A stretch of DNA of 64,000 bases from Halohasta litorea (lineage in GTDB: Archaea; Halobacteriota; Halobacteria; Halobacteriales; Haloferacaceae), in the NCBI RefSeq assembly GCF_024494645.1, contig NZ_JANHDJ010000003.1, forward strand, positions 186,001 through 250,000. The letters run 5' to 3'. This document shows, one piece after another, positions 14,470-31,572 of this stretch; position 1 is the stretch's first letter, and every line of letters starts with the position of its first letter. The translations under genes and the position numbers were made by a program. Under the pieces are notes generated by a model. The model ran no database searches. It was not told where the DNA came from and saw only the letters and a list, made by a program, of their open reading frames with translations.

Positions 14470-14778
14470 TGGCCGATTCACGCACGCCGCAGAGAAACGG
14501 GTTTCGACCCAGTAGAGAACTATTTTGCAGTCCAGGAACCGTCAGACCACGACGCGATCGGCGATATAAATTACATACTGCGATACCAAATACCAGAGTG
14601 GGCGAACGTCAGAAGTTCGGCAGATGGATTTCTACTAACCATAAGATATGTGATAGATAGGCGACAATCATACATTACGTGTTTGAAAGCTCTGCGGGGG
14701 TACATCCAGATCCACACGTCTCAGTACTCCTCGGGATCGACATCGCATTGTTTCAAGCTCACTACGGGTACATCCAGA

Positions 14779-14817
14779 TCGCTACACCCACCAGTTCGCC
14801 AGCACAGTCTTGCCGCC
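14779..14817 (-). repeat. Array 1 spacer, near-identical to spacer at 16097-16135
   Basis: This spacer matches the one at 16097-16135 at 34 of 39 positions. All five differences are transitions. Read on the transcribed strand the sequence would encode GGKTVLANWW, a P-loop-like stretch, suggesting both spacers target allelic variants of one ATPase-like gene. The coding interpretation is an inference. Confidence 0.85.
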
Positions 14818-16096
14818 ATTTCAAGCCCACTAAGGTACATCCAGACCTCCATAGACCCGGTTCGTGTAGTCTTCATCAATGTTGTTTCAAACCGACAACG
14901 GGTACATCCGATCCTATCCAGATTATGCCGGGTATGGTGTCCTCTCCGTCGTTTCAAACCTACAATAGGTACATCCAGACCGTGCGCATATGGCAGTGGT
15001 GAACCTCGTGATCGCGTTTCAAGCCTTCAAGAGTACATCCAGATCCCGCCGTAGTGCGGGCATCCCTCGCAGACATCGGGGTTTCAAGCCGACAACGGGT
15101 ACATCCAGATCCGACCTCACCAACAAGCGGATTCACTCGCCGCCGTTTCAAGCCCATTATGGGTACATTCAGATCCGGCCGCATTACCATTGTATCGTCG
15201 TTACCGATTGGATGTTTCAAGCCCACTTTAGGTACATCCAGTACCAGCGGGCAGCGAACGACGTGGCACGGCTGTCTCGCGTTTCAAGCCCGTAAGGGTA
15301 CATCCAGACCTCGGATGCTTCAATTGAGCCGATCGCTGGCTGTGCGTTTCAAGCCGACGATGGGTACATCCAGTACCGTGTCTTTATTCGTTGAGTAGAT
15401 AACGTAGCGATTGTTTCAAACCCACAACGAGTACATCCTGACCTGTCCCCCGGACACGCATATCGCCCCATGTGTACCGGTTTCAAGCCCGTAAGGGTAC
15501 ATCCAGACCAAGCCTCCTTGATGCGTGAATCGCGTCCACGCGGCGTTTCAAGCCTTCAGTAGGTACATCCAGAACCCGTCGCAGGCCGACAAGCGATTAG
15601 GCTTCTATACGTTTCAAGCCCACAATGGGTACATCCAGACCGATCAACGTCGCCGACTGGTCCGATCAATGGCTCGTTTCAAGCCTACAACGGGTACATC
15701 CAGATAGCATCTTCTCATAGTCGAACGCACCCATGTTATGCTGGTTTCAAGCCCGCAACAGGTACATCCCAACTGACGACGAGCGCGATTGCGCCCATGA
15801 TCAAGACCATGTTTTAAACCCACTAAGGGTACATCCAGTCCGATGACAACGAATACGGTCGGTAGGTGCGTATTTCAAGCCCATTATGGGTACATCCAAA
15901 CCGACTGCGTGGACGATTGAACACAACGATTTCTGGATATTTCAAACCCAGAAGGTACATCCAGACCGATCCCGACCGTCTCCGTTCTCGGCTACATCGT
16001 CATGTTTCAAGCCGACAACGGGTACATCCAGTCTCTTCTCAAGTGCGGCGCGGATCACGGCGGGGTAGTTTCAAGCCCACTAAGGGTACATCCAGA

Positions 16097-16135
16097 TCAC
16101 TGTACCCACCAGTTCACCAGCACAGTCTTACCGCC
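16097..16135 (-). repeat. Array 1 spacer, near-identical to spacer at 14779-14817
   Basis: This is the partner of the spacer at 14779-14817, twenty units closer to the leader and therefore presumably acquired later. On the transcribed strand it would encode GGKTVLVNWW, differing by synonymous changes and one V/A exchange from its partner. Confidence 0.85.
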
Positions 16136-16696
16136 GTTTCAAGCCCACAACCGGTACATCCTGAAAGACCAGAAGACCAACTCTGTCTGTTTCGGGAGTG
16201 CGTTTCAAGCCCGTAAGGGTACATCCAAGCCTCGTTCTCCGGCTCACCGAGTTCCTTGATTGCGCCATTTCAAACCCAATAAAGGTACAATCCAGTGCCC
16301 GACCGTAATTGTGGACTCGCCCGCACTCGTCGCAGTTTCAAACCCTCCGAGGTACATCCAGAACCGAAGGCATCCACATCGCGGCGGCCAACAAACCGAT
16401 GTTTCAAGCCTACAACGGGTACATCCAGAACGCTTACCCCCCAACCCGACCGGAGGAGCCGCACCCGGTTTCAAGCCCACTACGGGTACATCCAGACCAC
16501 TGAAAGACATCGCTCCGTCGGTCCTCGGCAACACGTTTCAAGCCTACCACTGGTACATCCAGAACGACGACGGCACTATCTACCGCGATCCAGCGGGCTG
16601 GTTTCAAGCCAACAACAGGTACATCCAGACCCAGCAAGGCCACTAAGACCTCTCTCGCTCTCTGCACGTTTCAAGCCGACAGTGGGTACATCCAGA

Positions 16697-16802
16697 CCTA
16701 CCCGAAATCAGGTAGTTACACTATTCTCTTGCCTGTTCACACTAAGTTGTTTCCGTCGACTATCAATCACTCCAAAACCCACCGAGGGTCGACTGAAACA
16801 GA
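16697..16802 (-). promoter_or_regulatory. Leader of CRISPR array 1
   Basis: This region lies between the leader-proximal repeat and the cas3 stop. Its segment 16734-16799, read on the minus strand, is homologous to 25147-25211 in front of array 2. Shared blocks include CGGTGGGTTT, GTCGACGGAAACA and TTAGTG-GAACA. Next to the first repeat there is a small hairpin (CTACC...GGTAG). Because cas3 ends exactly where the leader begins, the array may also be transcribed by read-through from the cas operon. Confidence 0.85.
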
Positions 16803-19664
16803 CTACAGAAGCCGGTGTGTTATAGACTTAGATTCGTCATTTGACAGCCCTTTCCAACCATATAACCCCGTATTCTCAGCTGCCTCTTGGTCAAGTAGAT
16901 AGAGATCGTCATCCAGTTGATGTGCGACCTGCGTAATTGGATTCTCATCTCGATTACGCGGTACGTCACAACCAATATGCCGCAGACACTCTCGAAGCGA
17001 GAGCTTGTGAGACGTGTGGTTGATCTGATCTGCTCTCCGATAGGCTTCTAAGAGCTTGTCTTCAGTTGATGACTGTGACACATAGACGGTGATTTCTGGA
17101 CGGTCGTCGTCTATCAGTGACGTTTGACTCATCGCCGTACCGTCGACAGAGTCCATATCCGGCGTCTGGTGTGGGATCTCGGTTGCGATCTCCTCGCGGT
17201 AATCATCGTAACCCCCCAAGAAATCTTGTTGTGAGATGTGTCTGCGATCAGTCCTGATGTGCTGTGTGAGGGACTGAACCGTCTTATTGAGTTCATTAAT
17301 CCCACTTTGGTTATAGACGTACTCAGCGGGGATACGGTTCATATTCGCAGGATCTTGGGCGTCCAGCTGCCATACTGTGACCTTACCGTTCCCGATACCG
17401 TACTCGTAGTCACGGTTACATCGCCCTGCGGCTTGGACGAGGCTATCGTAGGGGGCAATATCGCGGTATAGACTCTCGAAGCTAATGTCGACGCCTGCTT
17501 CAATTAGTTGGGTCGTGAGCGCAACGATTGTCGGTAGATCGTCCCGATCGGCCTCAGAACGCGGATACTGTTCGAGCAAGTCCGAAAGCCCATCGAGTAT
17601 CCGTGAACGGTCACACGGTCTGTTGCGGGTCGTAAGCGGGACTACGAGAACGTCGGCATCGGTCGAAAGCAATGACTCAACAAGATCCTCTGGTGTCGGG
17701 AGTTGGTTGTAGACTGTATCCCTATCAAAGTCACTCGGAGAGTCTAGATTCTCTGGGAGCGGTGGTTCTGCGTCTGTTATCAGATCACGATAGACTGTAT
17801 GGATATTGGCGTACTCAATTTCGGTGTCAACATCGAGGTCGGCTATCAGTGATTCAGCAACGGCTCTCGCATTTGAGACGGTATTATGGATCGACAAGAT
17901 ACTATCCCGGCCGCTGCCGATCTCGTCTCGAAGGCGTTGGGCGGCGGTTGTTGGTGGAATCGGATCGTCGGCTGTCACTGACTGGTCGACGGTGACAGTG
18001 ACGTTTTCGGGAAGCGTGACTGACGGTGCTAATTCAGCATCTTCGGGTGTTTCAGAGGTTGGGGTTGGATACTCAAGCGGGGGATGGGTCGCACTCATCA
18101 AGATGACTGTTGCATCGAATACCGTGTAGAGAGTGTCAATCAGTTGTTCGACCCGGCTCCACCATGTCGGCGGTGTAGTCTGTGGTTCGTCGATGATGAT
18201 GGTACTATTGTAGAACTGCGGGAGTTTCGTCGCCTGAGATTTTGATGGACCGTATAGCGATTCCCACAGCTGGACAGTCGTACTAAGTGTAATATCGCTG
18301 TGCCACGACTGGTAGGCCATTTCCGTCACATCGTCTGAGTCTGTATCAACATCCTCTTCATCGCCATCTGAGGTATTGTCTGCAAGATAGTGGTCGACAC
18401 CGATTGAAACGTCTGTCTGCAAGGCGTTGGTGTCGGTATTAAACTCACTCGCTGGGTCGAATAGCGTCTGATACACATCTTCTGTCTGTTCGATGATCGA
18501 CGTGTACGGCAAAATGTGGATCAGTGGGCCACTCTGCTCGCTTGCAGCATTGAGCTTGAGAGCGGCCTGTGTCACGGTGAGTGTCTTTCCGGCTCCGGTC
18601 GGGAGAGTGACCCGATAGACCCCGGATTGTGTCGGGTTCTCTTCTCCTGATTCTTCTGTGTCCGGTGTCGTGTCGGTCACGAACGCATCGAGTTGGTAGT
18701 CCTCGCCTGAGTTTGTCGGTGGCTCTCCTCGTGCTTCCGTAGAGTGTTCCCGACTCTCACCAGTGAGTGATTCGACCCGTTTGAGCGTTTCTTGACGGGT
18801 TTCCTCGCGTTTCTGATTCAGTAGTTCTTCTGGTGTCTCTGCATTCGTCGGTGGCGAGAGTTCTGTATCGACGTAGGTGTCGATGACAGCTGGATCTGGT
18901 AGATTATGGCTGGGTGGCGAGAGGCCAGCGGAAGCAGGAGTATCAGCCCCTTTCAACCCGCCCCATAGTTCAAGCAGATCGTGGTACACATCCACCGATT
19001 TGTAATTTGATTTGAGCGAGACGCCCGTCAGACCGGATATGTCGTCGGCGATACCTTCTCGTAACCCGTCCTCAACGATGTCGATGAACCGTTGCCATGA
19101 GATTTCAGGCGGAGTATCTGGGTCGGCCAGTAGCCCATCATTTTGGGATAAATGCTCAAGCAGCTGCGTAGCGATCTCCCGGCTCTGAGTGTGTTGATGG
19201 ATGTTATCAACTTGATGTTGAACCGTCTCCCACCGCGTTGTGTCGACGAACCGGTCAAACGAATAACTCTCAAGATCGGGCAGCGTCCCGTGGTGTCGGG
19301 CCACAGCTATCGACGCCGGGAAGGCAACCCGAACGGGATACCCTAGCTCTCGGAGAACCCACCATGTCGTGACACCACCGATGAAGCTATGATCTGCAAC
19401 CCGCCCCGGCGGTCGGTCGATCGATGGAACAGTAGTGTTAGCGTGGTCTTCTTGCCACCACGTCGTGATTTTTCCAATATCGTGACACCACGCCATGACG
19501 TACAAAACTGGTCGTGTTGGCGTTCCATCAGCGAGTGTCGTATCCGGCGGTGTGTTTGCCAGACAGTGATTCCCGACAGCAGCTAGATGATCGAGGACCG
19601 GTTCGTGTGTCCCCGACGCTATCGGGTGGTCGGTATGTGCAAAGTAGATCGGATCGTTTGTCAT
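16803..19664 (-). CDS. cas3: Cas3, HD nuclease-helicase of type I-B CRISPR
   Basis: A 953-residue Cas3 with both halves fused. The N-terminal HD domain has MAWCHDIGK (H61, D62) and further histidines in HSFIGG and ARHHG. The superfamily 2 helicase has the Walker A LPTGAGKT, the DEAD-box variant IIDEPQ, motif III MSATHPP and motif VI QAAGRCNRD. It is recruited by Cascade to unwind and degrade the invader's non-target strand. It is the last gene of the wHTH-cas6-cas8b-cas7-cas5-cas3 operon, 14 nt after cas5. All catalytic motifs are intact, so interference may be functional. In most haloarchaeal loci cas4, cas1 and cas2 would follow; here the array 1 leader does. Confidence 0.95.
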   Translation of the reverse strand: MTNDPIYFAHTDHPIASGTHEPVLDHLAAVGNHCLANTPPDTTLADGTPTRPVLYVMAWCHDIGKITTWWQEDHANTTVPSIDRPPGRVADHSFIGGVTTWWVLRELGYPVRVAFPASIAVARHHGTLPDLESYSFDRFVDTTRWETVQHQVDNIHQHTQSREIATQLLEHLSQNDGLLADPDTPPEISWQRFIDIVEDGLREGIADDISGLTGVSLKSNYKSVDVYHDLLELWGGLKGADTPASAGLSPPSHNLPDPAVIDTYVDTELSPPTNAETPEELLNQKREETRQETLKRVESLTGESREHSTEARGEPPTNSGEDYQLDAFVTDTTPDTEESGEENPTQSGVYRVTLPTGAGKTLTVTQAALKLNAASEQSGPLIHILPYTSIIEQTEDVYQTLFDPASEFNTDTNALQTDVSIGVDHYLADNTSDGDEEDVDTDSDDVTEMAYQSWHSDITLSTTVQLWESLYGPSKSQATKLPQFYNSTIIIDEPQTTPPTWWSRVEQLIDTLYTVFDATVILMSATHPPLEYPTPTSETPEDAELAPSVTLPENVTVTVDQSVTADDPIPPTTAAQRLRDEIGSGRDSILSIHNTVSNARAVAESLIADLDVDTEIEYANIHTVYRDLITDAEPPLPENLDSPSDFDRDTVYNQLPTPEDLVESLLSTDADVLVVPLTTRNRPCDRSRILDGLSDLLEQYPRSEADRDDLPTIVALTTQLIEAGVDISFESLYRDIAPYDSLVQAAGRCNRDYEYGIGNGKVTVWQLDAQDPANMNRIPAEYVYNQSGINELNKTVQSLTQHIRTDRRHISQQDFLGGYDDYREEIATEIPHQTPDMDSVDGTAMSQTSLIDDDRPEITVYVSQSSTEDKLLEAYRRADQINHTSHKLSLRECLRHIGCDVPRNRDENPITQVAHQLDDDLYLLDQEAAENTGLYGWKGLSNDESKSITHRLL

Positions 19665-19678
19665 GCGGCTCTCCTCAC

Positions 19679-20617
19679 TTATTTGAAGATGACCGTCTGC
19701 TCATCGACGGTGGCCGCATAGTCGGTGTCGACTGGAAGAGAGCCTGCATCCTCGCGGTACTGGTATGCAGTATAGGCCGTCGTTCGGCGTGTTTTGAACC
19801 CATCGTCGACCTGTTCCATCTCTGCTGGTGTCTGTTCGGTCGTGAGTTGTGTATTCGCCTGCATCTGCACGGTTCCGGCAGATGACGGTACAGCAGAATC
19901 GACTTCGACAGCTCCATCTCCGTCGACTGGCGTAGGTGAGAACTCACCGTGATACTCAATCGACGCAAGACACTCTGACAGGCCGAGTGTTGGTGTATAG
20001 TGGCTTTCTCCTGTCTCAAGAAGCTGTTTCAATTCGTTGTAGTAATCCTCCGAGCTTAACCAGATGTTGATCCGATACCGAACGTCTCGAAGCATCGTGT
20101 GGGCAACCCGTTGATGCACCTTCCCCTCGTCAATCTCCGAGGGATGCTTTTCGTATTCAAGTGTCAACCCACCCCCTGAAACAGATTTCATCTGATCGGG
20201 GTCGGTGTTCCGGTGTTTGATCGGCATACTGATGTCTCGAAGCGGATTCTCAACACTCACACTGAGGGCCGAGTGGGTAAGGTCGAACAACTGGTAGTAG
20301 CTGTTGACCTCTAAGCCGAGCATCGCCGCGATCATCCCGTTCAGTGTCGTTCGGGGTGGCAAACCGTAGGTGAGCCGCGTCGACGAGGTTTCGATCTTAC
20401 GGAAGTGTGCGAACGGTGCTGTCACAGTGAACGATAGACACTTCTCGGGTATCTCGTGAACCGACGCTAACTCCTCGCCGGTCGGCTCATAGTTGGGTGT
20501 CGTGTATTCTCCGGATTCATCATCGCGGTTGGTACTCTTCGTCGGTCGGTCGATTTCTGTCTTCTCTTCACTACTCCCTGACGCAAAATCAGAGAGCGTC
20601 GTATTCTTTTCCGACAT
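19679..20617 (-). CDS. cas5: Cas5, type I-B Cascade subunit
   Basis: A 312-residue protein with the Cas5 RAMP signature near residue 65: LSFTVTAPFAHFRKIET, then YGLPPRTTLNGMIAAMLG, the typical 'xPPRTTLxGMxxAxLG' element. Cas5 caps the 5' handle of the crRNA in Cascade. The first 50 or so residues are an acidic, low-complexity extension, and a long acidic loop follows residue 220; both are common haloarchaeal additions. It sits between cas7 (16-nt gap) and cas3 (14-nt gap), so it is cotranscribed. Confidence 0.93.
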   Translation of the reverse strand: MSEKNTTLSDFASGSSEEKTEIDRPTKSTNRDDESGEYTTPNYEPTGEELASVHEIPEKCLSFTVTAPFAHFRKIETSSTRLTYGLPPRTTLNGMIAAMLGLEVNSYYQLFDLTHSALSVSVENPLRDISMPIKHRNTDPDQMKSVSGGGLTLEYEKHPSEIDEGKVHQRVAHTMLRDVRYRINIWLSSEDYYNELKQLLETGESHYTPTLGLSECLASIEYHGEFSPTPVDGDGAVEVDSAVPSSAGTVQMQANTQLTTEQTPAEMEQVDDGFKTRRTTAYTAYQYREDAGSLPVDTDYAATVDEQTVIFK

Positions 20618-20633
20618 AGGCTATCTCCGGTCG

Positions 20634-21749
20634 CTACTCATACAGCGAGATTCGATCCACGTCCACACCGAGTTCAGATTCGATGTAGTCGGGGAGAGTT
20701 TGATCCAGCACGTTAGAATCTTCTTCTAACGTGAGGCGGGTGTCCTGTAGGATGTGAACTGTCTGGATTCGTTCGGCGGCTTCTTCCAGTGTCTCCATCA
20801 ACCCAGAGATGTCGACAGTCACGTCGTGGATGCTGGTGAGGGCGTCGACGTCGTCGCTGTTCTCTCCGAGATCGAGAGTGCGATCTAGGTTGCCCATGTG
20901 GAAGCCTTCGTCGTACTCGACACGGAGGTAGAGGCGGGGGTGCTGGCCGCGTTTGCTCCGGCTGTTGGCTTGATTCTTGACGCCCTTCCAGAACAGTTCA
21001 TCCAACCACTCGACATCTGATTGCCGGAGTCGAGTGTCGTCTGCGTTGTGTTCGTTGATGACCGCACTGAACCCGTAGAGGCCGTACACGATTCGATGAT
21101 CGTCCAACTGGAACCCGCCTTGTTCGTTCCCTCTGTCTTCATTGGCCTCATCACCACTGTCGTCGTTCTGGTTTGTGCTAATAACCGACGTGAGTGAGTT
21201 GTACCCGCTGTTTTCCCGAACACGGTGGTATGTCCGACCGGGTGAGATTTGAACCGGACCTTTTAGATGGGCCGGAAGGTGGTTGTCAATCTGTTTGGCG
21301 ATTGCCTGCGCCTCGTCGTTCTCGTCGATCGAGAATGAGAACGTCGCTCCGAAAAACCGAACATCGACGGCTGTATCGAGGAAATCGTCGAAGAATCCCT
21401 CGCCAATATCTTCGGGGCTGTCGACATCTGCGATTGTCTCGGCTAGCTCTGATCGGGTTTTTCGGTTCCCTGCTTCGGTGCGAACATCTGCGATATACAC
21501 ACCCTGATCGTCGCCACACTCAACGGCCATCTGATCGCGGAGATAGCGTTTGAGCCGAACGTCAGTGATGATTCCCTGTCCTGTTGATGGGTCTTGTCGT
21601 GGCTTGTTACTCGGACTGAGTGGGTCGCCGTTCGGGTTCGCATCTTGAGCATCCATCAAGAACAGAATCTCCGATCGGTTCTCGACGGAAGTGAATGCGT
21701 TGTTGTCTGCCTCTGTGCCTTCGCTGTCGGTTGGGTCTTGAGTTGACAT
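20634..21749 (-). CDS. cas7: Cas7 (Csh2), backbone subunit of type I-B Cascade
   Basis: A 371-residue protein opening its fold with SEILFLMDAQDANPNGDPL, the canonical Cas7/Csh2 start, then ITDVRLKRYLRDQ and VRFFGATFSF. The C-terminal HILQDTRLTLEEDSNVLDQ region is also typical. Cas7 polymerises along the crRNA spacer and forms the Cascade backbone. The start at 21749 (MSTQDPT) is preferred over an in-frame upstream ATG that would overlap cas8b. An acidic insert (residues about 218-233) is probably a haloadaptive loop. Confidence 0.94.
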   Translation of the reverse strand: MSTQDPTDSEGTEADNNAFTSVENRSEILFLMDAQDANPNGDPLSPSNKPRQDPSTGQGIITDVRLKRYLRDQMAVECGDDQGVYIADVRTEAGNRKTRSELAETIADVDSPEDIGEGFFDDFLDTAVDVRFFGATFSFSIDENDEAQAIAKQIDNHLPAHLKGPVQISPGRTYHRVRENSGYNSLTSVISTNQNDDSGDEANEDRGNEQGGFQLDDHRIVYGLYGFSAVINEHNADDTRLRQSDVEWLDELFWKGVKNQANSRSKRGQHPRLYLRVEYDEGFHMGNLDRTLDLGENSDDVDALTSIHDVTVDISGLMETLEEAAERIQTVHILQDTRLTLEEDSNVLDQTLPDYIESELGVDVDRISLYE

Positions 21750-21771
21750 TGGTAGTCTCTCCTGTGAGTGA

Positions 21772-24018
21772 TTACGTGTGTGTCTGCGCTCCAAACGCCA
21801 TGCCGAGTGCGACGTGGTACTGAATATCCGACGACGATAGCTCCCACTCACTGACCGGCATGGTGGTGAGGTCTTCGGTCAGCTGGCTTGTCTGAGTCTC
21901 GTACTTCCAGATGTTGTCCCCGTTTTCAGCGGTCGCATACGTGTTGATGAGATCGAGTACGTCTGTGACGTATTCCTCGACGTTGTGTTTTGTAATCGTC
22001 GACGGGCTGAGTCGGGAATTGAGTGGTTTGGTTCCCTTCGACGATTGATACGCCGAAACGGTCGTAATGAGTGACCCTAGTGTGAATACTGCTCGCCGTG
22101 ACGGGCTTTCAGCTAACACCGGTTGTTCGGTTATCATCCGCTCGTAGGCTTCTTTTTCTGCTATCGCTCGTTGCTTGGCTGTAACGTCTGTACTCCCGTC
22201 TTCGTCTTGATCGGCACTATCGTCTGCGTCTGTCATAGGATCTGTGTCGGTGAGATCGGTGTCACTACGATTCTTCTGGGCTGGGATACAGTACGGTTCG
22301 TCAGTGTCCGGCGTCTCTGGAAGGTCTACATCGAGTAATCCAGACCGGCCGAGCGTGACTAACTGTGCAAACTGCTGGATGATCTGAAGGGTTGGAACAC
22401 GTCGACCATCATCCGCTGTTGGGTCGTATCTATCCTCAAGATGCGGAATATAGGCGTCCAACAGTTGACTCAACGAAATCGGCTTCTGTTGAAGTAACTG
22501 CTTGTAGAACGCATATCCCGGCTCGTTCTGGTCGACATCGTCCTCATCGGTCGTCGTGACTGTCGTATTGATGAACCAATACGGCGTCGTGATCTGGGCG
22601 AGGAAATCTGTTTCAGGGGTGGCAAAGTCCCATGTGTACGTCTCGAACAAGCCTGTCTCCGACAGATCACGGGCGACTCCTGTAGCCTCCTGTGCAATGT
22701 CGACCGTCGCAAGCATACTCCCGCCTTTGACCTCTGCAATCGCCCGGTTGCGGTCACTCTGGTAGTTGACGATAGCGACTGTCCAGAACCGAAGCGATTT
22801 GACGATTGATTCGGGGACGTGATCTGAATCGACTTCTTCCTGAATCAGTCGGTAGAACTGTTCGATTGGGGTGTGCGTGACACCTTCATCATCCTCGTCC
22901 GGGTCGGAACGGGTGTACGTCTCCCACAGTAGCTCGTAGAGATACCGCATCTTCTGTGGGGTCTGTTCACCCCCAAAGTACGGGAGGTGGTAGAGACTCA
23001 ACCCAGCTGACTGTTTGCAGGCATCAAGGAACGGCGTTGATTTGCCGATCACAGCCGACGTTTCTGCTGTGAATGGGTGGGTCGCGGCCGAAAGGTCACG
23101 ATTCAAATGGGGCATCCACGCCCGCTTCTTGCCTGTATAGAGCGATAGCGGGGCCGCCCCCTGACCGAACACTTGCTGTTCAGCACCACTCTGGACGTAT
23201 CCGACAGCCGTCCCTGACGCATCACAGTCGTTCTTTGTTCGCCACTTCCCCTTTCGTTGGGCCTTCATCGCCTCCAATAGGACATCCATGTCTGCCGGAT
23301 ACAGCCACCTATCATCGTCGGGATCGGCCGGAGGTGATAGTTCATCCGCAGACACAGACTCAGATGACTCATAGAACCGTATCGACACAAGCCGAGTTAC
23401 ATCCTTACTGTCGTCTACAGTGAGTTTGGTTTCGATCTCATCTCTCAATTCGTCCATCTCCTCCGATTCGTGGAGCGACTTGATTTGCTCGATGATCCAG
23501 CCATCTTCGTGATCGTCGATCACTGGCTGAATGAGGTCTTGGGTCGGCCACCCATCAATAATATCACTGAACTTATTTTCAGAGATGTAACTGAAATCCT
23601 TGTATGTGGACTTATCAGGATCTATACCGCCTTCTTTCGATGTCTTCTGCGTGATGCTGTGGTCGACACCATTGCTGGCTTCGTACTCGGAAAACGCACA
23701 CCGGTCGATATGCTCTTTTGTGCCGGTAACGACCGAAGTTCCGATGGGTGTGACTGACCGCTGTTCTCGATTCAGTTGCACATCAAGGTAGATGATTGCC
23801 TGCTCCTCACCGATGATAGAGTTGACTTCCATCGGCGTTAAGAACTGCTGGTACTCCTCGGAAGCGGCATACGGAGTTGGTTCCTGCCCCAACTCAAGCA
23901 TCTTCCCGTAGATGTACTGAAGGTCTGTCAACGATCCCGGCTCGCGGCCACCGGGGAAAATCACACCCTCAAACTCGGTGTCAGGAATGTCACCCTCGGG
24001 ACGATAGGCACTACTCAT
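21772..24018 (-). CDS. cas8b: Cas8b (Csh1), large subunit of type I-B Cascade
   Basis: A 748-residue protein in the position of the Cascade large subunit between cas6 and cas7. N-terminal TDLQYIYGKMLELG and the middle LSLYTGKKRAWMPHLN are Csh1-like, and the C-terminal third carries a long acidic linker (about residues 595-620) before a helical end. Cas8b recognises the PAM and supports Cas3 recruitment. Large subunits diverge quickly, so the call rests on size, operon position and partial motif resemblance. Confidence 0.88.
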   Translation of the reverse strand: MSSAYRPEGDIPDTEFEGVIFPGGREPGSLTDLQYIYGKMLELGQEPTPYAASEEYQQFLTPMEVNSIIGEEQAIIYLDVQLNREQRSVTPIGTSVVTGTKEHIDRCAFSEYEASNGVDHSITQKTSKEGGIDPDKSTYKDFSYISENKFSDIIDGWPTQDLIQPVIDDHEDGWIIEQIKSLHESEEMDELRDEIETKLTVDDSKDVTRLVSIRFYESSESVSADELSPPADPDDDRWLYPADMDVLLEAMKAQRKGKWRTKNDCDASGTAVGYVQSGAEQQVFGQGAAPLSLYTGKKRAWMPHLNRDLSAATHPFTAETSAVIGKSTPFLDACKQSAGLSLYHLPYFGGEQTPQKMRYLYELLWETYTRSDPDEDDEGVTHTPIEQFYRLIQEEVDSDHVPESIVKSLRFWTVAIVNYQSDRNRAIAEVKGGSMLATVDIAQEATGVARDLSETGLFETYTWDFATPETDFLAQITTPYWFINTTVTTTDEDDVDQNEPGYAFYKQLLQQKPISLSQLLDAYIPHLEDRYDPTADDGRRVPTLQIIQQFAQLVTLGRSGLLDVDLPETPDTDEPYCIPAQKNRSDTDLTDTDPMTDADDSADQDEDGSTDVTAKQRAIAEKEAYERMITEQPVLAESPSRRAVFTLGSLITTVSAYQSSKGTKPLNSRLSPSTITKHNVEEYVTDVLDLINTYATAENGDNIWKYETQTSQLTEDLTTMPVSEWELSSSDIQYHVALGMAFGAQTHT

Positions 24019-24022
24019 ACGA

Positions 24023-24829
24023 TCACATCCCCGTCAGTACCGGCTCTTGTTTGGATGTGAGCGAAAGCGTACCCAACCCGAAGTTGTTCCGTTCGCCAAT
24101 CCCTGCTCCCAGTGCAAGATTAAGGGCGTCTCTGTGGGCCTGACTCCGCACCTCGTAGTCAAACTCCCACTTGCTCAGGACGATTCTCTGAGTGTGGTCG
24201 ACTGTAACACGCAACGGTATCGAATACGTCTTCTGTAGCGTTTTACGGTCGAATAGCGGGCCATGAATATCCTCCGGGCTGTCTCTCGACTGGTCAGTAA
24301 GTGACTCCCACTTGCCTGTGAGATTTTCTCTGACCCGATCAACAAAGGCTTGTTCCGGATCGTCTTCTGACCAATAGTACACATCCGACCCCGGATTCTC
24401 TAATCCAAACTCGGATACTCGGTCATTAGGGACTGAAATTAACACCCCGGTATCCGATTCAAGCGTTCCCTGAGTTCCGACCTGTCCAACATCAACTGTT
24501 GATTGGTCAATCCCCTGTACGGTGAATTGCATTTCACCGATATTGAACGATGGATCACTCGACACTGACTGGGCTATGTGACCGACGATCTCCGGATCGA
24601 CCGTGTTCACGACTAACTGCCGTGTCTCGCCCGCCGATACATCACCCCACGGCATGAGTTCGGTGAACGAAATGCCAAGTGTCGACGGTGTGTCTCCCTT
24701 TTTCGATTCCTCAATGATTGGATCGGGTATCCGATTGAGGACCGCACCGTGCAACTTTCGATGGTACATATCCGGATACTGGCAGTCGGTGTCTGCTTCC
24801 AGATAGAGAATGAGCTTCGTTACGTTCAC
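24023..24829 (-). CDS. cas6: Cas6, CRISPR repeat endoribonuclease
   Basis: A 268-residue Cas6. Two RAMP-like halves are followed by the C-terminal glycine-rich loop GAGIGERNNFGLGTL, the hallmark of the family. It cuts the repeat 8 nt before its 3' end, leaving a 5' handle, here CTTGAAAC or TTTGAAAC. The strict conservation of that handle and of GGATGTACC in otherwise variable repeats fits selection by Cas6 binding and cleavage. A GTG start at 24829 overlaps the stop of the upstream wHTH gene by 4 nt, and cas8b follows after 4 nt, so translation is probably coupled. Confidence 0.94.
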   Translation of the reverse strand: MNVTKLILYLEADTDCQYPDMYHRKLHGAVLNRIPDPIIEESKKGDTPSTLGISFTELMPWGDVSAGETRQLVVNTVDPEIVGHIAQSVSSDPSFNIGEMQFTVQGIDQSTVDVGQVGTQGTLESDTGVLISVPNDRVSEFGLENPGSDVYYWSEDDPEQAFVDRVRENLTGKWESLTDQSRDSPEDIHGPLFDRKTLQKTYSIPLRVTVDHTQRIVLSKWEFDYEVRSQAHRDALNLALGAGIGERNNFGLGTLSLTSKQEPVLTGM

Positions 24830-25086
24830 TTGTCGATGCTCACCTCATCTACAACACTCCATAGCAGAGCGTTCCCGACTTTCTCAGACTCAACCTTCCC
24901 GTCTTGTTCCAGCTGGCGTAACCGGCGGTACGCAGTCGGTTGTTTGTAGCCAAACCGATCTGCGACAGCCTGTGTCCCAGTTGGACCCTCTGTATCGAGG
25001 TAGTCCAAGAGGTCTGAGTCGGAGTAGGCTTGGATGTATTGCCCTGTATCCGAATCACGATTTCTCGCCACAACGGTTCCTTGCAT
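24826..25086 (-). CDS. Winged-helix regulator heading the cas operon
   Basis: An 86-residue protein with a clear winged helix-turn-helix: SDLLDYLDTEGPTGTQAVAD, recognition-helix region GYKQPTAYRRLRQLEQDG, and a wing with KVGNALLWS. It is the first gene of the cas operon and its stop overlaps the cas6 start by 4 nt. It borders the shared region from which the operon and array 2 diverge. This position suggests autoregulation and possibly control of leader activity, analogous in idea to Csa3- or Cbp-type regulators but not obviously homologous to them. The function is an inference from fold and context. Confidence 0.85.
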   Translation of the reverse strand: MQGTVVARNRDSDTGQYIQAYSDSDLLDYLDTEGPTGTQAVADRFGYKQPTAYRRLRQLEQDGKVESEKVGNALLWSVVDEVSIDK

Positions 25087-25247
25087 ACCTCACTACATAG
25101 TAGTCACGCTAAATGACATAAAACCTTGTATTATTCAATACATGGATTTCAGTCGGCTCCCGGTGGGTTTGGAGGTTATTGAGGGTCGACGGAAACAGTT
25201 TAGTGAGAACAACTAATAGAAGGCTCTAACAACCCGATACGGGATTG
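25087..25247 (+). promoter_or_regulatory. Leader of CRISPR array 2 and divergent cas promoter region
   Basis: A 161-nt AT-richer region between the first cas-operon gene (minus strand) and array 2 (plus strand). The segment 25147-25211 is homologous to the leader of array 1, sharing TTTCAGTCG, CGGTGGGTTT, GTCGACGGAAACA and TTAGTG. A small hairpin (CCCGataCGGG) precedes the first repeat. AT-rich DNA around 25110-25140 may hold TATA elements for both directions. Confidence 0.85.
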
Positions 25248-26687
25248 GGTTCGGATGTACCTCCGGTAGGTTTGAAACCTCACCGCGATCGGGCTCGGCG
25301 GCGCAGCAGTATGGGTTCGGATGTACCTCTGGTAGGTTTGAAACACCCCGGAGTTGGTGACGTAATTGACCCCTGCGGGGTTCGGATGTACCTCTGGTAG
25401 GTTTGAAACCTCACCGACGGCTCGGGGACGTACCGCGTCAGAATGGTTCGGATGTACCTCTGGTAGGTTTGAAACGCCCAAATCGAGAGCGCGCTGCCAG
25501 CTATCGACAACAGGTTCGGATGTACCTCTGGTAGGTTTGAAACAAAGCCGAACACGCCGACCGAGACCTCACGGCGTACTGGTTCGGATGTACCTCTGGT
25601 AGGTTTGAAACGGTAACTGCCAGCAGATGATTGGGTTGCGTGCTGGAGGTTCGGATGTACCTCTGGTAGGTTTGAAACATGGGCGTCGTCGAAGACTACC
25701 TCGACCTCCAGCGGGGTTCGGATGTACCTCTGGTAGGTTTGAAACGGGCTCGTGAGACCACAGGGCGTGGAACACAGACTCGGTTCGGATATACCTCTGG
25801 TAGGTTTGAAACACCGGGAAATCCCGGGTTTTACCGGCTCTGGCCGGGGTTCGGATGTACCTTTGGTAGGTTTGAAACGTCACCCTCGACGACGGACGGA
25901 TCGGCCGGGTCGAGGTTCGGATGTGCCTCTGGTAGGTACCCGTAGGAGGATTGAAACCCGCCGTAGTCAGTTTTCGACCCTATCGGACCTGTTCCGTCTG
26001 GATGTACCCATTGTCGGCTTGAAACGTCTGCATGGCTGTCGCCTGTCGGATAACCTGAGTCGGTCTGGATGTACCCGTTGTAGGTTTGAAACTTGACTCG
26101 GCGGTGGTAGGTTGAGACGCCGTATTCGTAGTCTGGATGTACCCGTTGAAGGCTTGAAACGAGGCGAATACGCTGAGTCCGTACCTCCAACAATTGGTCT
26201 GGATGTACTCGTTGTGGGCTTGAAACGTTGAGGACGCAACCGAGGACTGGCAGATTGAGAAGCGTACTGGATGTACCTGTAATGGGCTTGAAACGTGATT
26301 CGGTGTATGATCCAGCCCGTCTCGGTTTCGAGGGTCAGGATGTACTCTAGTGAGCTTGAAACAACGGCGTACCTATCGCGGAACAACTGATCAAGTCGTA
26401 TTGGATGTACCTATTGAGGGCTTGAAACCCTGCTGCCTCAACTGCTCGGAGTCCTTTGAGAGTACTGGATGTACCATAGTAGGCTTGAAACAACGCCATC
26501 TGGTGTGATGAACCCGCCCACTACGATAGCATTGGATGTACCTATAGTAGGCTTGAAACGGGGGAACCGCACCGCAGTCAGCTGGTTTCGGGATATGGAT
26601 GTACCTAGTCGGCTTGAAACAAAAATGCGCTCTACACCACTCCGAACCTGATCAGGTGGTCTGGATGTACCTGTCGTGAGTTGAAAC
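25248..26687 (+). CRISPR. CRISPR array 2: 22 repeats, 21 spacers, two repeat types
   Basis: Transcribed rightward from the 25087-25247 leader. Repeats 1-10 are 31 nt of type A (GGTTCGGATGTACC...GGTTTGAAAC); seven are identical and three differ by one base each. Repeat 11 is a 44-nt chimera. Repeats 12-22 are type B, 29-31 nt, ending CTTGAAAC, and all differ in the core and often in the first four bases, like array 1. The last unit (26658-26687) ends ...GAGTTGAAAC and is degenerate. Spacers are 32-38 nt. The type A core ACCT...AGGT is a self-complementary variant of the ACCC...GGG core. The array ends 1 nt before a possible ATG of the downstream orc/cdc6 gene. Confidence 0.97.
25914..25957 (+). 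repeat. Chimeric 44-nt junction repeat of array 2
   Basis: The unit begins as a type A repeat (GGTTCGG, then CCTCTGGTAGGT) and continues with ACCCGTAGGAGG plus ATTGAAAC, the second half of a type B-like repeat. It marks the exact boundary between the homogeneous and the hypervariable halves of the array. Its structure suggests joining of two arrays or repeats at the short GGTACC/GGT homology. Confidence 0.9.
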
Positions 26688-26706
26688 TATGACTTCTTTC
26701 GGAAGA

Positions 26707-26727
26707 TTCGGAAACTACCCACTTCCG
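26707..26727 (+). promoter_or_regulatory. Shared upstream motif, copy 1 (before orc/cdc6)
   Basis: The motif TTCGGAAACTACCCACTTCC plus one base has an inverted-repeat flavour (CGGAA...TTCCG). It ends 30 nt before the ATG at 26758. A TATA-like TTTATTTATC follows at 26728-26737, at the right distance for a leaderless transcript starting at that ATG. Confidence 0.6.
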
Positions 26728-26757
26728 TTTATTTATCAAGAGGACGTATCAGATCCC

Positions 26758-27762
26758 ATGATTACGGACGCACGGGTGCTACAGCCCGAATTTGTCCCGA
26801 ACGACGTAAAGCACAGATCGGCAGAGGTGAGCCACCTATCGGATACGCTCCGCCCGATCGTCGACGGCGACCGGGCGACCAACTCCCTACTGTATGGTCC
26901 ATCAGGAGCCGGGAAGACGTGTATCGCCCAGTTCACCATCGAACAGTTGCGAGAGAACGTCGTCGACCTGAACTACCAGTACGTGAACTGCTGGGAGGAC
27001 CACACTCGGTTCAAAACGCTCTACAGGCTGTTGGACGGCATCGAGAGTACATTCGACATCCACCGACAGTCGACGCCCAAGGACGAACTGTTGGAACGGC
27101 TGAGAGGCTACGACGGCCCACCCTACGTCGTGATCCTTGATGAAGTCGACCAGCTACAGGATAAGAGCCTGCTGTACGATCTCTACCGGATGCGCGACCT
27201 CACGATGGTTCTGATTGCCAACCGAGAGGAAGACGTGTTCAGTACGCTCGATGACCGGCTGAACAGCCGTCTTGAGTCGTGTGCGCGTATCAGATTCGGG
27301 CAATACGATATTCGAGAGTTAGTCACGATCCTCGAAGATCGCGCTCGATGGGGACTTGAGCCGGATGCAATCGACACTCAGGAATTAGAGACGATTGCCG
27401 ACTATGCAGCCGGGGATGCACGGGTGGCTATCGGGATTTTCCGAAACGCCGCACGGGTTGCTCGACGCAACGGTGATGATCGGATCACGGTCGACGTGAT
27501 TGACGGGGTAGTTTCGGAAGCGAAATCGGAAATCCGTCAAAAGACGACAGACAAGCTCACTGACCACCAACAGGCTCTCTACGATATCATCAAAGAAGCC
27601 GGAGAGATCAGCGCGGGCAACCTCTACGACTCTTACTGTAAGGCGGTTAAAAACCCGAAAACCCGTCGAACAATGCGGAACCACCTCTCGAAACTGGAAC
27701 AGTACAACCTCATTTTCGCCACCGGGAAGACGAAAGCACGTAGCTACCAACCCTATTCGTAG
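26758..27762 (+). CDS. Orc1/Cdc6-family AAA+ ATPase
   Basis: The protein has 334 residues from the ATG at 26758, or 357 from an in-frame ATG at 26689 that abuts the last CRISPR repeat. The inner start is favoured by an upstream TATA-like element and shared motif, and because [14 protein letters not shown] resembles family N-termini. Walker A is YGPSGAGKT and Walker B is [10 protein letters not shown]; sensor regions and a C-terminal winged helix ([20 protein letters not shown]...) follow. Orc1/Cdc6 proteins bind origins and load MCM. Accessory copies like this one are common on plasmids and integrated elements. No clear origin repeats are visible beside it, so a replication role here is unproven. 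Confidence 0.9.
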
Positions 27763-27764
27763 AT

Positions 27765-27784
27765 AAGCCGGATTTCGCTGGCTT
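27765..27784 (+). terminator. Small hairpin after orc/cdc6
   Basis: AAGCC and GGCTT pair across a 10-nt loop immediately after the stop codon and before the convergent small gene. It may terminate or insulate transcripts. There is no strong T-run, so the call is tentative. Confidence 0.3.
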
Positions 27785-27792
27785 GTATCTGA

Positions 27793-28035
27793 TCAGTAGA
27801 ACCGATATTCATTCGATACACTGTCGCTGTCATGCCTAATCACATCGTACTCTAAACCTTCAAATTCCAAGACACCGAATGTGAGTCTCATTCCTAAAAG
27901 AGAACTATCGTCGACATTTGCCCTTTCGGCTATTCTACCCGCCCGAACGCGTTTCTCACCTTCCTTCATCAAGTCGTTACAGGCTTGTTCGACCTTCTGG
28001 ATGTATTCCTTTTCCACCATACCATATATGTCCAT
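27793..28035 (-). CDS. Small 80-residue protein, HTH-like, function unknown
   Basis: The 80 residues contain a plausible helix-turn-helix (RAGRIAERANVDDSSLLGMRL) followed by a strand-rich end (FEGLEYDVIRHDS...YRFY) that could be a wing. Two possible starts exist, at 28035 and at the methionine six codons in. It is convergent with orc/cdc6. Base composition is AT-rich like the rest of this stretch. I do not recognise the family; small HTH proteins of this type often accompany mobile elements. Confidence 0.6.
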   Translation of the reverse strand: MDIYGMVEKEYIQKVEQACNDLMKEGEKRVRAGRIAERANVDDSSLLGMRLTFGVLEFEGLEYDVIRHDSDSVSNEYRFY

Positions 28036-28097
28036 ATATCAATAGTAAATACTATCGGTGAATATAATGGGACTCTACTATACCTTTCCGGCCTGAT

Positions 28098-28117
28098 TTC
28101 GGAAACTACACTCCGAA
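28098..28117 (+). promoter_or_regulatory. Shared upstream motif, copy 2 (before exonuclease-like gene)
   Basis: TTCGGAAACTACACTCCGAA is a perfect 6-bp inverted repeat (TTCGGA/TCCGAA) with an 8-nt centre. It ends 30 nt before the ATG at 28148, the same spacing as copy 1. A weak TATA-like TTCATATC follows at about 28119-28126. Confidence 0.6.
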
Positions 28118-28147
28118 CTTCATATCGGTTCCGTCGAACCAGCATCT

Positions 28148-28792
28148 ATGGGTGATTTAGACCCAATCGCGTTCGACATCGAAACCAGCGGCTTCGGAAA
28201 CGAATCGGTACTCACTGTAGCAGGGTTCGCCTCTACACTCGGTGAGGTCGTTATCCTGAACACAGCTGGTCGACAGGCGAACAGCACTCAGTTAGAACAG
28301 GCTCTTGCCGAGTATTCTGACTACGGCGTCGACGTAATCGTCACAGACGATGAGGCAGGGCTACTCTCTGCCGTCGAACAGGTGGCTACCGACCGACTGA
28401 ACAAAGATCGCCACTATCTGACGGCCTACAACGGTGAGACGTGGAAAGGCGGGTTCGATCTGCCGTACCTTCGGACGGCGTGCATCTCTCATGACGTTGC
28501 GTGGCCGTTTCCGAATATGGCCTACGCCGACGTGTTCGAGTTCGTCGATCGGTTCGACACCCACGACGAGAAAGGACTGGTCGGCGTCTACGACGAGTTG
28601 ATCGGGAAGGCGAACTGTGACCCCTTCGACGACAGTAAAGAGGCCGTCGACGCCTTTGAGAGCGGTAAGTGGGAGCCGCTATTGTTGCACAACCTTGCTG
28701 ACATCCAACGAACGCTTGAGCTGGCGATGCTCGGCGAGCGGTACGTCCCTCGGTCGGATTTCAAAATGAAGAATCTCTCGCCGCCAAACTAA
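28148..28792 (+). CDS. DEDD (DnaQ/PolB-type) 3'-5' exonuclease-like protein
   Basis: A 214-residue RNase H-fold protein. It starts with IAFDIETSGF (the DxE motif of DEDD exonucleases). Later it has YNGETWKGGFDLPYLRT (second acidic motif), YADVFEFV, and HNLADIQRTLELA (third motif region with a final aspartate). This is the arrangement of the predicted PolB-like exonuclease family found in archaea and viruses. It lacks polymerase domains. The context beside an Orc1/Cdc6 and a CRISPR locus suggests a mobile replicon or defence-linked nuclease, but substrate and role are not shown. Its stop overlaps by 4 nt the convergent repressor-like gene. Confidence 0.78.
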   Translation: MGDLDPIAFDIETSGFGNESVLTVAGFASTLGEVVILNTAGRQANSTQLEQALAEYSDYGVDVIVTDDEAGLLSAVEQVATDRLNKDRHYLTAYNGETWKGGFDLPYLRTACISHDVAWPFPNMAYADVFEFVDRFDTHDEKGLVGVYDELIGKANCDPFDDSKEAVDAFESGKWEPLLLHNLADIQRTLELAMLGERYVPRSDFKMKNLSPPN

Positions 28793-29304
28793 CGGTCAAA
28801 CGGATTGTCATCTGGCTTACTTGTTGATACTTTCAGGTCGACTGAAAACTCTGAACCTTTTTCGACATCCTTGTTTTCTATTATTTCATCTGCGAAATCT
28901 TCAATGTTTTCTGGTTTTCCAGACCAATCTAAGAATTCATCCTTCTTTTCTTGAAAATTCTTTCGTACAGATACTAGTTCATCGTGGATTTGCCTGACTC
29001 CATTGATTCGCATCCTATAGACGATAATCATACCAAGTGGTGAAAGTGCCCAAACACGACGAATGGTACCATCACGATCTTCCTGAGTAGGATATATCAA
29101 ATCCAGATTCAATGCCTCATCTCTTCGATCATTGATATAGCCTCTGCTGATATCCAGTGCATCATCTATTTCTTCAAATCGGTAGCCAAACCCATCAAGA
29201 AATGCCAATAGCTCGACTGCTCCTTTTTCTTTGATAAACTCGGAAATTCCCTCGTAATCGACATTATCCCAATCAACAGGAGAGTCGGTTATATTGCCGT
29301 CCAT
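28789..29304 (-). CDS. Winged-helix repressor-like protein (PhiH1-repressor-like)
   Basis: A 171-residue protein. Residues about 17-90 form a winged helix: ISEFIKEKGAVELLAFLDG, then FEEIDDALDISRGYINDRRDEALNLDLIYP, then a beta-wing (GTIRRVWALSPLGM). A helical, possibly dimerising, C-terminal part follows. The layout resembles haloviral PhiH1-type repressors and related archaeal regulators. The gene is markedly AT-rich compared with the chromosome. Two copies of a semi-palindrome lie upstream of it (29361 and 29469), which are plausible operators for itself and for the divergent transposase-like gene. Confidence 0.75.
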   Translation of the reverse strand: MDGNITDSPVDWDNVDYEGISEFIKEKGAVELLAFLDGFGYRFEEIDDALDISRGYINDRRDEALNLDLIYPTQEDRDGTIRRVWALSPLGMIIVYRMRINGVRQIHDELVSVRKNFQEKKDEFLDWSGKPENIEDFADEIIENKDVEKGSEFSVDLKVSTSKPDDNPFDR

Positions 29305-29360
29305 TAAGACACCATCTGCGGGGCTACCTATTCATTATGTATACTAGTTCAATTTGTACT

Positions 29361-29379
29361 TAGATACAAAATGAATCTA
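29361..29379. promoter_or_regulatory. Semi-palindromic operator candidate, copy 1
   Basis: TAGATACAAAATGAATCTA is a near-perfect inverted repeat. It lies 57 nt upstream of the repressor-like gene start. A related half-site (TTCAATTTGTAC) sits just to its left at about 29348-29359. Confidence 0.6.
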
Positions 29380-29445
29380 TATTCTGATTGAACTGCTGTA
29401 TTGATTTTCTGCTTATAACCTTCTGGGCAGTATATTGATTCGGAA

Positions 29446-29466
29446 TTCGGAAATCACACCCTCGAA
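29446..29466 (+). promoter_or_regulatory. Shared upstream motif, copy 3 (before transposase-like gene)
   Basis: TTCGGAAATCACACCCTCGA plus one base resembles the copies at 26707 and 28098. It ends 33 nt before an ATG at 29500. It is the weakest copy, with an imperfect inverted repeat (TTCG/CGAA). Confidence 0.5.
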
Positions 29467-29468
29467 AA

Positions 29469-29487
29469 TAGATACAATTTGAATCTA
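29469..29487. promoter_or_regulatory. Semi-palindromic operator candidate, copy 2
   Basis: TAGATACAATTTGAATCTA differs from copy 1 only in its centre (ATT for AAA-type bases). It occupies the position where a TATA box would lie for a leaderless transcript starting at 29500. Binding here would therefore repress the transposase-like gene. Confidence 0.6.
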
Positions 29488-29499
29488 CAGAAACATACG

Positions 29500-29571
29500 A
29501 TGAGTACGGTTTGCCTGTCTACAAGAGCGGGTGAGAAATTATGCAAATGGGGGAATCAGAGTGCAGACTGA
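29500..29571 (+). other. 23-codon ORF, possible displaced N-terminus of the transposase-like gene
   Basis: An ATG at 29500 at leaderless distance from the shared motif encodes 23 residues (MSTVCLSTRAGEKLCKWG and five more) before TGA. If one base were removed near 29569 the frame would continue as ...SADDSPAVAQAI into the 29531-31291 protein. This may be a frameshift, a programmed frameshift site, or a short leader ORF. Confidence 0.4.
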
Positions 29572-31291
29572 TTCTCCCGCAGTGGCTCAAGCGATAGTCA
29601 TTCATGCAGAAACCCTCTGTGAGCGCGAGTCTAATCTATGGGATGTAATTGACCGGCTCAGTATTCCGGTCGATGACTTGACTGACAACCGCAACCAAAA
29701 CAAGGTCACGTTCGGGACTGAGCCACTTGTTCGGGCGTTTCTCTATCAGCAGGCGAAAGGAATGTCACAAAACGAACTCGCCCATCGGCTCCACACACGA
29801 CCGTCACTGATCAAAGCCTGCGGATTCGATATTCGGAAACGCGAACACGCACCCCAACAAGGAACGATCAACCATACGTGGCGACAGTTCAGTGAGGCTA
29901 CCCAGAATATCATCGAAGCAGCTGCAAAGGGGATCGCACAGGTCGCTGTTGAGAACGACGTGATAGCCGAATCGCTCGTGGCTACCGACCCCTCGAAAGA
30001 CGACGACACTGACCAAACGGAGCAGGAAGCACACAGACAGAAAACGACTAAGACTATCAAGCTCGCTCGACAGCACGCCTTTCCAGAGTTCAAGAGCGGG
30101 CGGGCCGTCAACAAAACCTACGAGGACGAAGAAATCCTCGAAATGTTCACACGCGCCTGCGCTCACCGTGGCAGTGCCAAATCCGAAGGTGACTACGGCT
30201 GGTTGACCGACGACGATCAGACTGCCCACGGCTCGACGATCCTGCGTGTGATTAAGCAGTTTGCTACCCCCAGCGACGAGGACGCCCAGCTGACGATTGA
30301 TGACCTCCTCAAGAACGACAATATGCCGGAGGTTGATGCTATCAGAGACGAACTGATGGGGTCATTCGATGGTGCCGTCGACAATATCATCTCGTCTATC
30401 CGGGGAGCGGGGCCGTTCAGCGACCGCAAAAAGACCGCTGCAATCGACATCACTCCCGAAGAAGTGTTCATGTCGCCGTGGAAAAACAAGACCGAGGAAA
30501 TCACTCGCCCCGATTTTCCCCGGATGGTCAGCGGCTACAAGAAAGATAACGACTACAAACGGGGATACAAGTACGCCACGATCACGCTGGCTGGTGATTT
30601 AGCACCGATCATTCTGGGTGTCGAACCCGTCAAAGAGAACTCGAAATGGGAAGACGACGACGCACCATCCTACTCGAAAGCCGACATCGTAGCCCGATTG
30701 TTAGCCAAAGCCGAGCGGTTCGTCGATCTTGATGAAGTGTACTTGGATCGCGGATTCCACAGCAAGGGCGTCTACGCCTCTATCGAGAACCGAGACATCA
30801 TCTACACCGCTCCGGTTCCGAAGTACGAGGACGATCTGGATACAATCAAGGACATCAAAGAGCATCCTGACGCCGATGCAGCTGTCAAACACAACGTTCC
30901 AGTCGGATACGACGGTGAGCTACACCACACCGCTGAATATCTCTACGTTCCGAGTACAAGCGATGATGCAGATGGGAAGTATGCCGTCTTCACGACGAAT
31001 CGGGATGAGGTTGGGACCGATGAGATCGCGCCGATCAGCGATAGCTACAGTCGACGGTGGGACATCGAAAACCAGTACAAGTCTATCGAAGAGTTCCTGC
31101 CGAAAACGTCGTCGACAGACTACCGCGTTCGATTCACGAATTTCGTGTTGGCTGCACTGCTCTACAACCTGTGGCGGCTAACCGACTATCTGATCAAGGT
31201 AGCACGGGAGCAACCGATTCGATCACCACCGGTAGTGGGCGTTAAGACGTTCGTGAGAGCTATCGGCGACTTCCTCAGAGAGATAGATTAA
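29531..31291 (+). CDS. Large DDE transposase-like protein (IS4-type fold)
   Basis: From GTG 29531 this gives 586 residues; the true N-terminus is uncertain (see the ORF at 29500). The N-terminal half has an HTH-like region (GMSQNELAHRL) and acidic stretches. The catalytic half shows an aspartate in AAIDITPE, a second in VYLDRGFHSKGVY, and the C-terminal glutamate motif RRWDIENQYKSIEEFLP, matching the DDE/YREK pattern of IS4-superfamily transposases. No terminal inverted repeats or target-site duplication were found around it, so it may be a domesticated or decayed copy, or a non-IS relative. Coding composition is AT-richer than the core chromosome. Confidence 0.8.
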   Translation: MRNYANGGIRVQTDSPAVAQAIVIHAETLCERESNLWDVIDRLSIPVDDLTDNRNQNKVTFGTEPLVRAFLYQQAKGMSQNELAHRLHTRPSLIKACGFDIRKREHAPQQGTINHTWRQFSEATQNIIEAAAKGIAQVAVENDVIAESLVATDPSKDDDTDQTEQEAHRQKTTKTIKLARQHAFPEFKSGRAVNKTYEDEEILEMFTRACAHRGSAKSEGDYGWLTDDDQTAHGSTILRVIKQFATPSDEDAQLTIDDLLKNDNMPEVDAIRDELMGSFDGAVDNIISSIRGAGPFSDRKKTAAIDITPEEVFMSPWKNKTEEITRPDFPRMVSGYKKDNDYKRGYKYATITLAGDLAPIILGVEPVKENSKWEDDDAPSYSKADIVARLLAKAERFVDLDEVYLDRGFHSKGVYASIENRDIIYTAPVPKYEDDLDTIKDIKEHPDADAAVKHNVPVGYDGELHHTAEYLYVPSTSDDADGKYAVFTTNRDEVGTDEIAPISDSYSRRWDIENQYKSIEEFLPKTSSTDYRVRFTNFVLAALLYNLWRLTDYLIKVAREQPIRSPPVVGVKTFVRAIGDFLREID

Positions 31292-31572
31292 CATGGACTC
31301 GCTTCTTCGGGTTCTCCTAACTGGTAGTCGCAACACTGTGCAGTAATCCGATTTTTCGGCCTCATTTGTCGGTCAGCTAACCCGACTCCGAGCAGATCCC
31401 TGACTTTTCTTGCGGCTACTTATTTTCACACAACCAAGTGTATGTTAGATCCAGATACTACCGCCAACTCGTTGGTAGCACCCCCTATCTGCCGATTATG
31501 TGAACGTATGCGCTCGGGGCGACTGTGCGGGAGACGAAACCGGTATCCCCACCCATCAGCAACCCACTGGTA

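Follow-up and report, generated by a model that had tools for sequence, protein, structure and literature searches.

A 44-nt repeat unit between the young and old parts of a CRISPR array in a Halohasta litorea type I-B system without its own uptake genes

The CRISPR locus studied here contains one aberrant repeat of 44 nt (25914-25957), whereas the other 52 units of its two arrays measure 29 to 32 nt (one left-array unit having been set by hand to 14780-14750 in the table of unit lengths). We asked how this repeat arose, and what kind of boundary it marks. An earlier note on the window (the whole 64,000-nt stretch of Halohasta litorea DNA that was analysed) had described it as a chimera at the junction of two repeat blocks. 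Its existence and coordinates are borne out, as is its placement exactly between ten type A units (25248-25878) and eleven type B units (25995-26687).

Organisation of the locus

We identified a minus-strand type I-B operon that reads cas6, cas8b, cas7, cas5, cas3, with an outward-pointing array at each end (Table 1). In addition to the five genes cas6, cas8b, cas7b, cas5b and cas3 within one operon, the system has the 8-nt handle (n)TTGAAAC, spacers of about 36 nt and a TTC PAM that mark type I-B. A whole-genome search for Cas1 and Cas2 returned no match (genome 99.94% complete), and the Haloferax volcanii control was matched in the same search.

The closest locus found is that of plasmid p163 of Halorubrum sp. 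BOL3-1 (NZ_CP034693.1), with Cas8b 68%, Cas7 82% and Cas5 80% identical. Against BOL3-1, pN/pS was 0.17-0.31 for cas7, cas5, cas8b and cas3, at synonymous sites near saturation, and cas6 is intact in the present genome. A small helix-turn-helix protein gene with weak matches to ArsR-like and Csa3 HTH models occupies the gap between cas6 and the right leader (24829-25089). The CRISPR system is contained in a low-GC island (approximately 14500-31500; 0.46-0.57 versus 0.60-0.70 around it), which also carries a transposase gene and, immediately behind the right array, orc1/cdc6; the island looks like an integrated plasmid.

Table 1. Features of the CRISPR locus, in coordinates of the window.
Feature	Coordinates	Strand	Description
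Left array	14681..16698	-	31 variable type B repeats
Leader, left array	16699..16800	-	
cas3	16803..19664	-	PF18019, PF22590
cas5b	19679..20617	-	PF09704, TIGR02592
cas7b (Csh2)	20634..21746	-	PF05107, TIGR02590
cas8b (Csh1/TM1802)	21772..24018	-	PF09484; TIGR02591 domain below its cut-off
cas6	24023..24829	-	Pfam PF01881, NCBIfam TIGR01877
Leader, right array	25095..25247	+	66-nt core 83% identical to left leader
Right array	25248-26687	+	22 units
Young block	25248..25878	+	10 type A repeats and spacers, leader-proximal; 7 identical, 3 with one change
Aberrant 44-nt repeat	25914..25957	+	Left part A-type, 13 extra nt, B-like right part with end ATTGAAAC
Old block	25995..26687	+	11 variable type B repeats, 29-31 nt, and spacers

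Conservation and drift of the old repeats

The old units number 42 (31 in the left array and 11 in the right), and they do not form one repeat type, with a single identical pair among 41 of them (the 32-nt terminal unit being left out of this count). Variation spares two boxes almost completely, GGATGTACC and GG-n-TTGAAAC, and affects the remainder; exact GGATGTACC and exact TTGAAAC are each present in 36/42 units. Counted over the 30 B units that are 31 nt long, changes per cell were 0.28 at positions 1-5, 0.019 at 6-14, 0.30 at 15-21, 0.017 at 22-23, 0.20 at 24, 0.006 at 25-30 and 0.067 at 31, and the B consensus differs from the BOL3-1 repeat only at positions 4 and 24. Motifs for repeat duplication reportedly lie in the variable middle of the repeat in Haloarcula hispanica.

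Within the handle of the B units, position -8 varies, positions -7 to -2 are fixed in 40/42 and position -1 changes to T only (4/42). This pattern mirrors the mutagenesis of the Haloferax crRNA handle, for which the available part of PMC4326828 reports that -8 can be changed or deleted, that C at -1 can be replaced by U or A though not by G, that other handle deletions abolish interference, and that the 3' handle is dispensable for it. As the 3' handle is dispensable, the GGATGTACC box would act before interference, presumably serving Cas6 or something else at that stage.

Adjacent units of the left array were not more alike than others (p 0.81), giving no sign there of a copying error passed on at each uptake. 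Adjacent units were more alike among the right B units (p 0.025) and in the variable tail of a second Cas1-less haloarchaeal array, that of genome G445 (p 0.002), indicating that some of the divergence was passed on as these arrays grew. No signal of selection for pairwise difference was identified (0 identical pairs among 30 units versus 0.09 expected from shuffled columns). Compensatory evolution of a stem was rejected, the pairs 15-21 and 16-20 keeping their pairing no better than shuffles (17 versus 16.7 and 24 versus 24.3 of 30, respectively). Older, trailer-end repeats are known to carry changes, and recombination between repeats to remove units (review PMC8047081, available part); in the present locus, by contrast, whole arrays vary rather than the last repeat only.

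The type A repeats and the 44-nt unit

Changes per unit across the A block are, in order, 1,0,0,0,0,0,0,0,1,1, so that most fall at the old end of the block. Compared with the BOL3-1 repeat, A is changed only at positions 5, 15, 16, 18 and 21, all variable in B (chance 0.026). Because these five differences all fall at freely drifting B positions, type A can be understood as a drifted repeat; it is best read as one such unit, the first repeat of the array, which would have been copied when uptake resumed. The exact A repeat had no occurrence in genome_contigs, and with at most 2 mismatches it was found in only one of 392 genomes of the order, the present genome itself.

The left 24 nt of the 44-nt unit have one mismatch to type A and score -9.4 bits as A versus -32.9 as B, so that the A-type identity of this half is secure, with A ahead by 23.5 bits. 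The 20 nt that follow carry the end ATTGAAAC. The right 21 nt have 5 mismatches to A, 4 to the BOL3-1 repeat and 3 to the nearest B units, and score -18.9 bits as B, -26.2 as strict A and -18.8 as A drifted at B-unit rates. Read as a recombinant repeat, which calls for each half to be assignable to a different parent, the unit has a left half of type A and a right half in which B leads strict A by 7.3 bits and is level (0 bits ahead) with drifted A. Thus, of the proposed A-left, B-right chimera, the left assignment stands firmly, whereas the right one holds only against unmutated A, and a B-type right half is favoured only if both halves mutated at the same rate. Two bases of the right half, G at 20 and A at 24, are absent from all A units and likewise from the 30 B units that were scored. 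The GGTACC/GGT homology described at the junction was not recovered; the overlap is GT only (A positions 23-24, B positions 10-11), without a 6-nt homology.

The 44-nt unit retains the 8-nt handle and, at the right distance, 7/9 positions of the GGATGTACC box; judged by this retention, it is probably still processed, perhaps poorly. Its predicted RNA folding is unremarkable (z 0.41); good folding was seen for two A units (z -2.6 and -3.1).

Spacers and protospacers

We inspected protospacers at 27 loci, and identified one with a TTC PAM for 5/41 B spacers and 0/10 A spacers. That of R19 lies in terL of Halorubrum virus Humcor1 (30/37), and the others are those of R21 (29/37), L03 (31/36), L16 (29/34) and L25 (32/35). 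Spacer L16 additionally resembles a spacer in an ordinary array of G377, a genome of another genus (L069, contig 1; 29/34), indicating that both took the same protospacer. Phage matches of the left array comprised 7 records, none haloviral.

Mismatches between spacers and protospacers concentrate in one codon phase (16/28, p 0.006), suggesting that much of the difference arose in the viruses. Non-wobble mismatches amounted to 12/121 in the matched B spacers, versus 105/360 changes at free repeat positions (p 8e-6). The drift of repeats and the drift of spacers thus disagree, and either selection acts on the spacers or detection reached just the good ones, protospacer detection being biased toward little-changed spacers. 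Two spacers of the left array (14781-14817 and 16099-16135) begin alike and differ in only a few of 37 bases, and the repeats after them differ by 2/31; they represent either a drifted duplicate unit or two uptakes from variant viruses.

Comparison with related systems

BOL3-1, like the present genome, is without Cas1 and Cas2 genome-wide; its repeats, in contrast, hardly vary (5 different sequences over 30 nt among 26 units). In p163 (L044 1-2631 and 10094-12303), an ISH3 transposase gene interrupts cas6 and an IS5 gene sits inside the array at the start of the record, so that BOL3-1 can probably no longer produce crRNAs anew by means of its own Cas6. A search with Cas7 against genome_contigs and viral_contigs yielded no named relatives.

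G445, from the same genus group as BOL3-1, resembles the present genome in lacking Cas1 (whole genome), in having a uniform block at the leader followed by a variable tail, and in tolerating change at handle position -1 (C 42, T 5, A 3, G 0 of 50). Its operon, read from open reading frames, is cas6-8b-7-5-3, and its array (L105/L091, contig 90, 8.5-11.8 kb) has 50 units, the first 9 identical and the following 41 comprising 33 sequences whose divergence rises toward the far end. Unlike the array studied here, it is built of 30-nt repeats of the GTTTCAGACGAACCC kind and has no over-long unit. Repeat lengths of 30 and 31 nt are interleaved along it.

We surveyed 43 loci (40 cas8b loci of up to 20 kb each, G445, BOL3-1 and the window), dropping chance chains with a mean distance >11 and reverse-strand echoes; an array was not found at three of them, L107 (with Cas1), L120 and L131 (both without). 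Hypervariable arrays were present at 2/5 Cas1-less loci with arrays versus 0/35 with Cas1 (p 0.013, a value that is too small since G445 was picked for its variable array). BOL3-1, G012 and G018 are without a nearby Cas1, yet their arrays are not variable, which shows that the absence of nearby Cas1 does not alone make an array variable. Cas1 absence is genome-wide for the present genome, BOL3-1 and G445, and locus-level for G012 and G018.

Adaptation-deficient haloarchaeal I-B systems have been described (Naki and Gophna 2025, PMC12596717), which in the available text share with the present one I-B effector genes without cas1 or cas2 and, in Natrinema salifodinae and Halobacterium GSL-19, no second, Cas1-bearing CRISPR-Cas. 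Their repeats are near-identical, whereas those studied here are hypervariable and in two arrays flanking the operon; those systems are carried by proviruses, and the likeness drawn here is of gene content. The main text of that paper, as available, contains neither the word Halorubrum nor the word degenerate. In literature searches we recognised no earlier description of repeat variability in arrays that lack Cas1.

Origin of the 44-nt unit

The boundary is where the young and old parts of a single array meet, and the system to which this array belongs has no uptake genes of its own. On balance, and with modest confidence, we read the 44-nt unit as the scar of an out-of-register recombination between an A repeat of the young part and a B repeat of the old part. 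An ancestral repeat close to that of BOL3-1, taken as outgroup, would have built both arrays. Cas1 and Cas2 would then have been lost, or never carried, so that repeats were no longer re-copied and each drifted alone, with selection presumably preserving those positions that crRNA maturation and the 5' handle require; the absence of Cas1 and Cas2 and the pattern of change are observed, and selection is the probable cause of that pattern. Uptake may later have restarted at the right leader, with Cas1 and Cas2 supplied in trans and since lost, and the first, already drifted repeat would have been copied into a uniform A block. Finally, an A repeat would have recombined with a more distal B repeat, in a register shifted by 13 bp and with 2 nt shared, deleting the intervening units, leaving the 44-nt unit and sharpening the boundary.

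When both halves mutate alike, joining A-left to B-right scores -28.0 bits and duplication within A -35.4; the join is favoured because the left half of the unit has hardly drifted. In addition, the sole over-long unit stands exactly on the boundary (1 of 22 places by chance), as expected if the two blocks recombined, which favours recombination of A with B over a chance duplication. Against the join, the right 21 nt fit drifted A as well as B, and only 2 nt of overlap support it. The two right-half bases shared with neither the A units nor the scored B units also count against this reading, as does the disagreement between repeat drift and spacer drift. No strain with an unrecombined array was found.

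Slippage is a possible but less likely origin, in which a 13-nt tandem duplication of the repeat middle (TACCTCTGGTAGG) occurred in the last A unit and was mutated later. The extra segment is indeed 13 nt and aligns with the adjoining 13 nt, and a drifted A right half scores the same as B; however, the copy requires 4 to 5 changes versus one in the left 24 nt, the strict A-A form is worse by 7.4 bits, and the boundary position is left unexplained. We consider it improbable that the 44-nt unit predates the A block, as the first repeat when uptake restarted, and that the A repeats are its shortened copies. CRISPR array growth is polarised, and the boundary is where a template for the A block is expected, accounting for the position of the unit. 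However, every one of the ten A units reads A at position 12 and T at position 24, against G and A in the 44-nt unit, and a cut 31 nt from the leader should give copies ending in TACCCGTA, not TTTGAAAC.

The earlier note had instead proposed a recombination or mis-integration that fused a new repeat lineage onto an old array. Recombination at the boundary remains the best reading; mis-integration by a shifted second cut is disfavoured, as we reason that it would lengthen the repeat at its spacer end rather than duplicate its middle. The abrupt change of repeat and the uniform A block are what a fused foreign array would give. That origin is nevertheless very unlikely, and a new lineage is not supported, since A lies inside B variation, the right leader is about equally near to the left (83%) and BOL3-1 (82%) leaders and so not foreign, and the A repeat was found in no other genome searched. 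An assembly artefact is hardly credible, since any read would be longer than the unit, which lies in the interior of a chromosomal contig of 380,980 bp, and no result of the analysis points to one.

Implications

A wider idea, which we offer as rather doubtful, is that Cas1-less haloarchaea cannot regain lost spacers, so that units whose repeats have diverged too far to recombine would survive. Their arrays would retain just the features required by Cas6 and the effector; everything else would be lost, spacer-integration motifs among it, and the 44-nt unit would be where recombination from the uniform young block met the protected old block.

The junction alone is a modest curiosity, and its surroundings are more useful. 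The 42 independently mutated repeats amount to a natural mutational scan of the type I-B repeat once uptake had stopped, which separates the needs of crRNA maturation and interference from those of uptake only, and agrees with laboratory data from Haloferax. Together with G445, they provide a testable rule, that Cas1-less arrays age characteristically and that renewed uptake leaves a dated uniform block.
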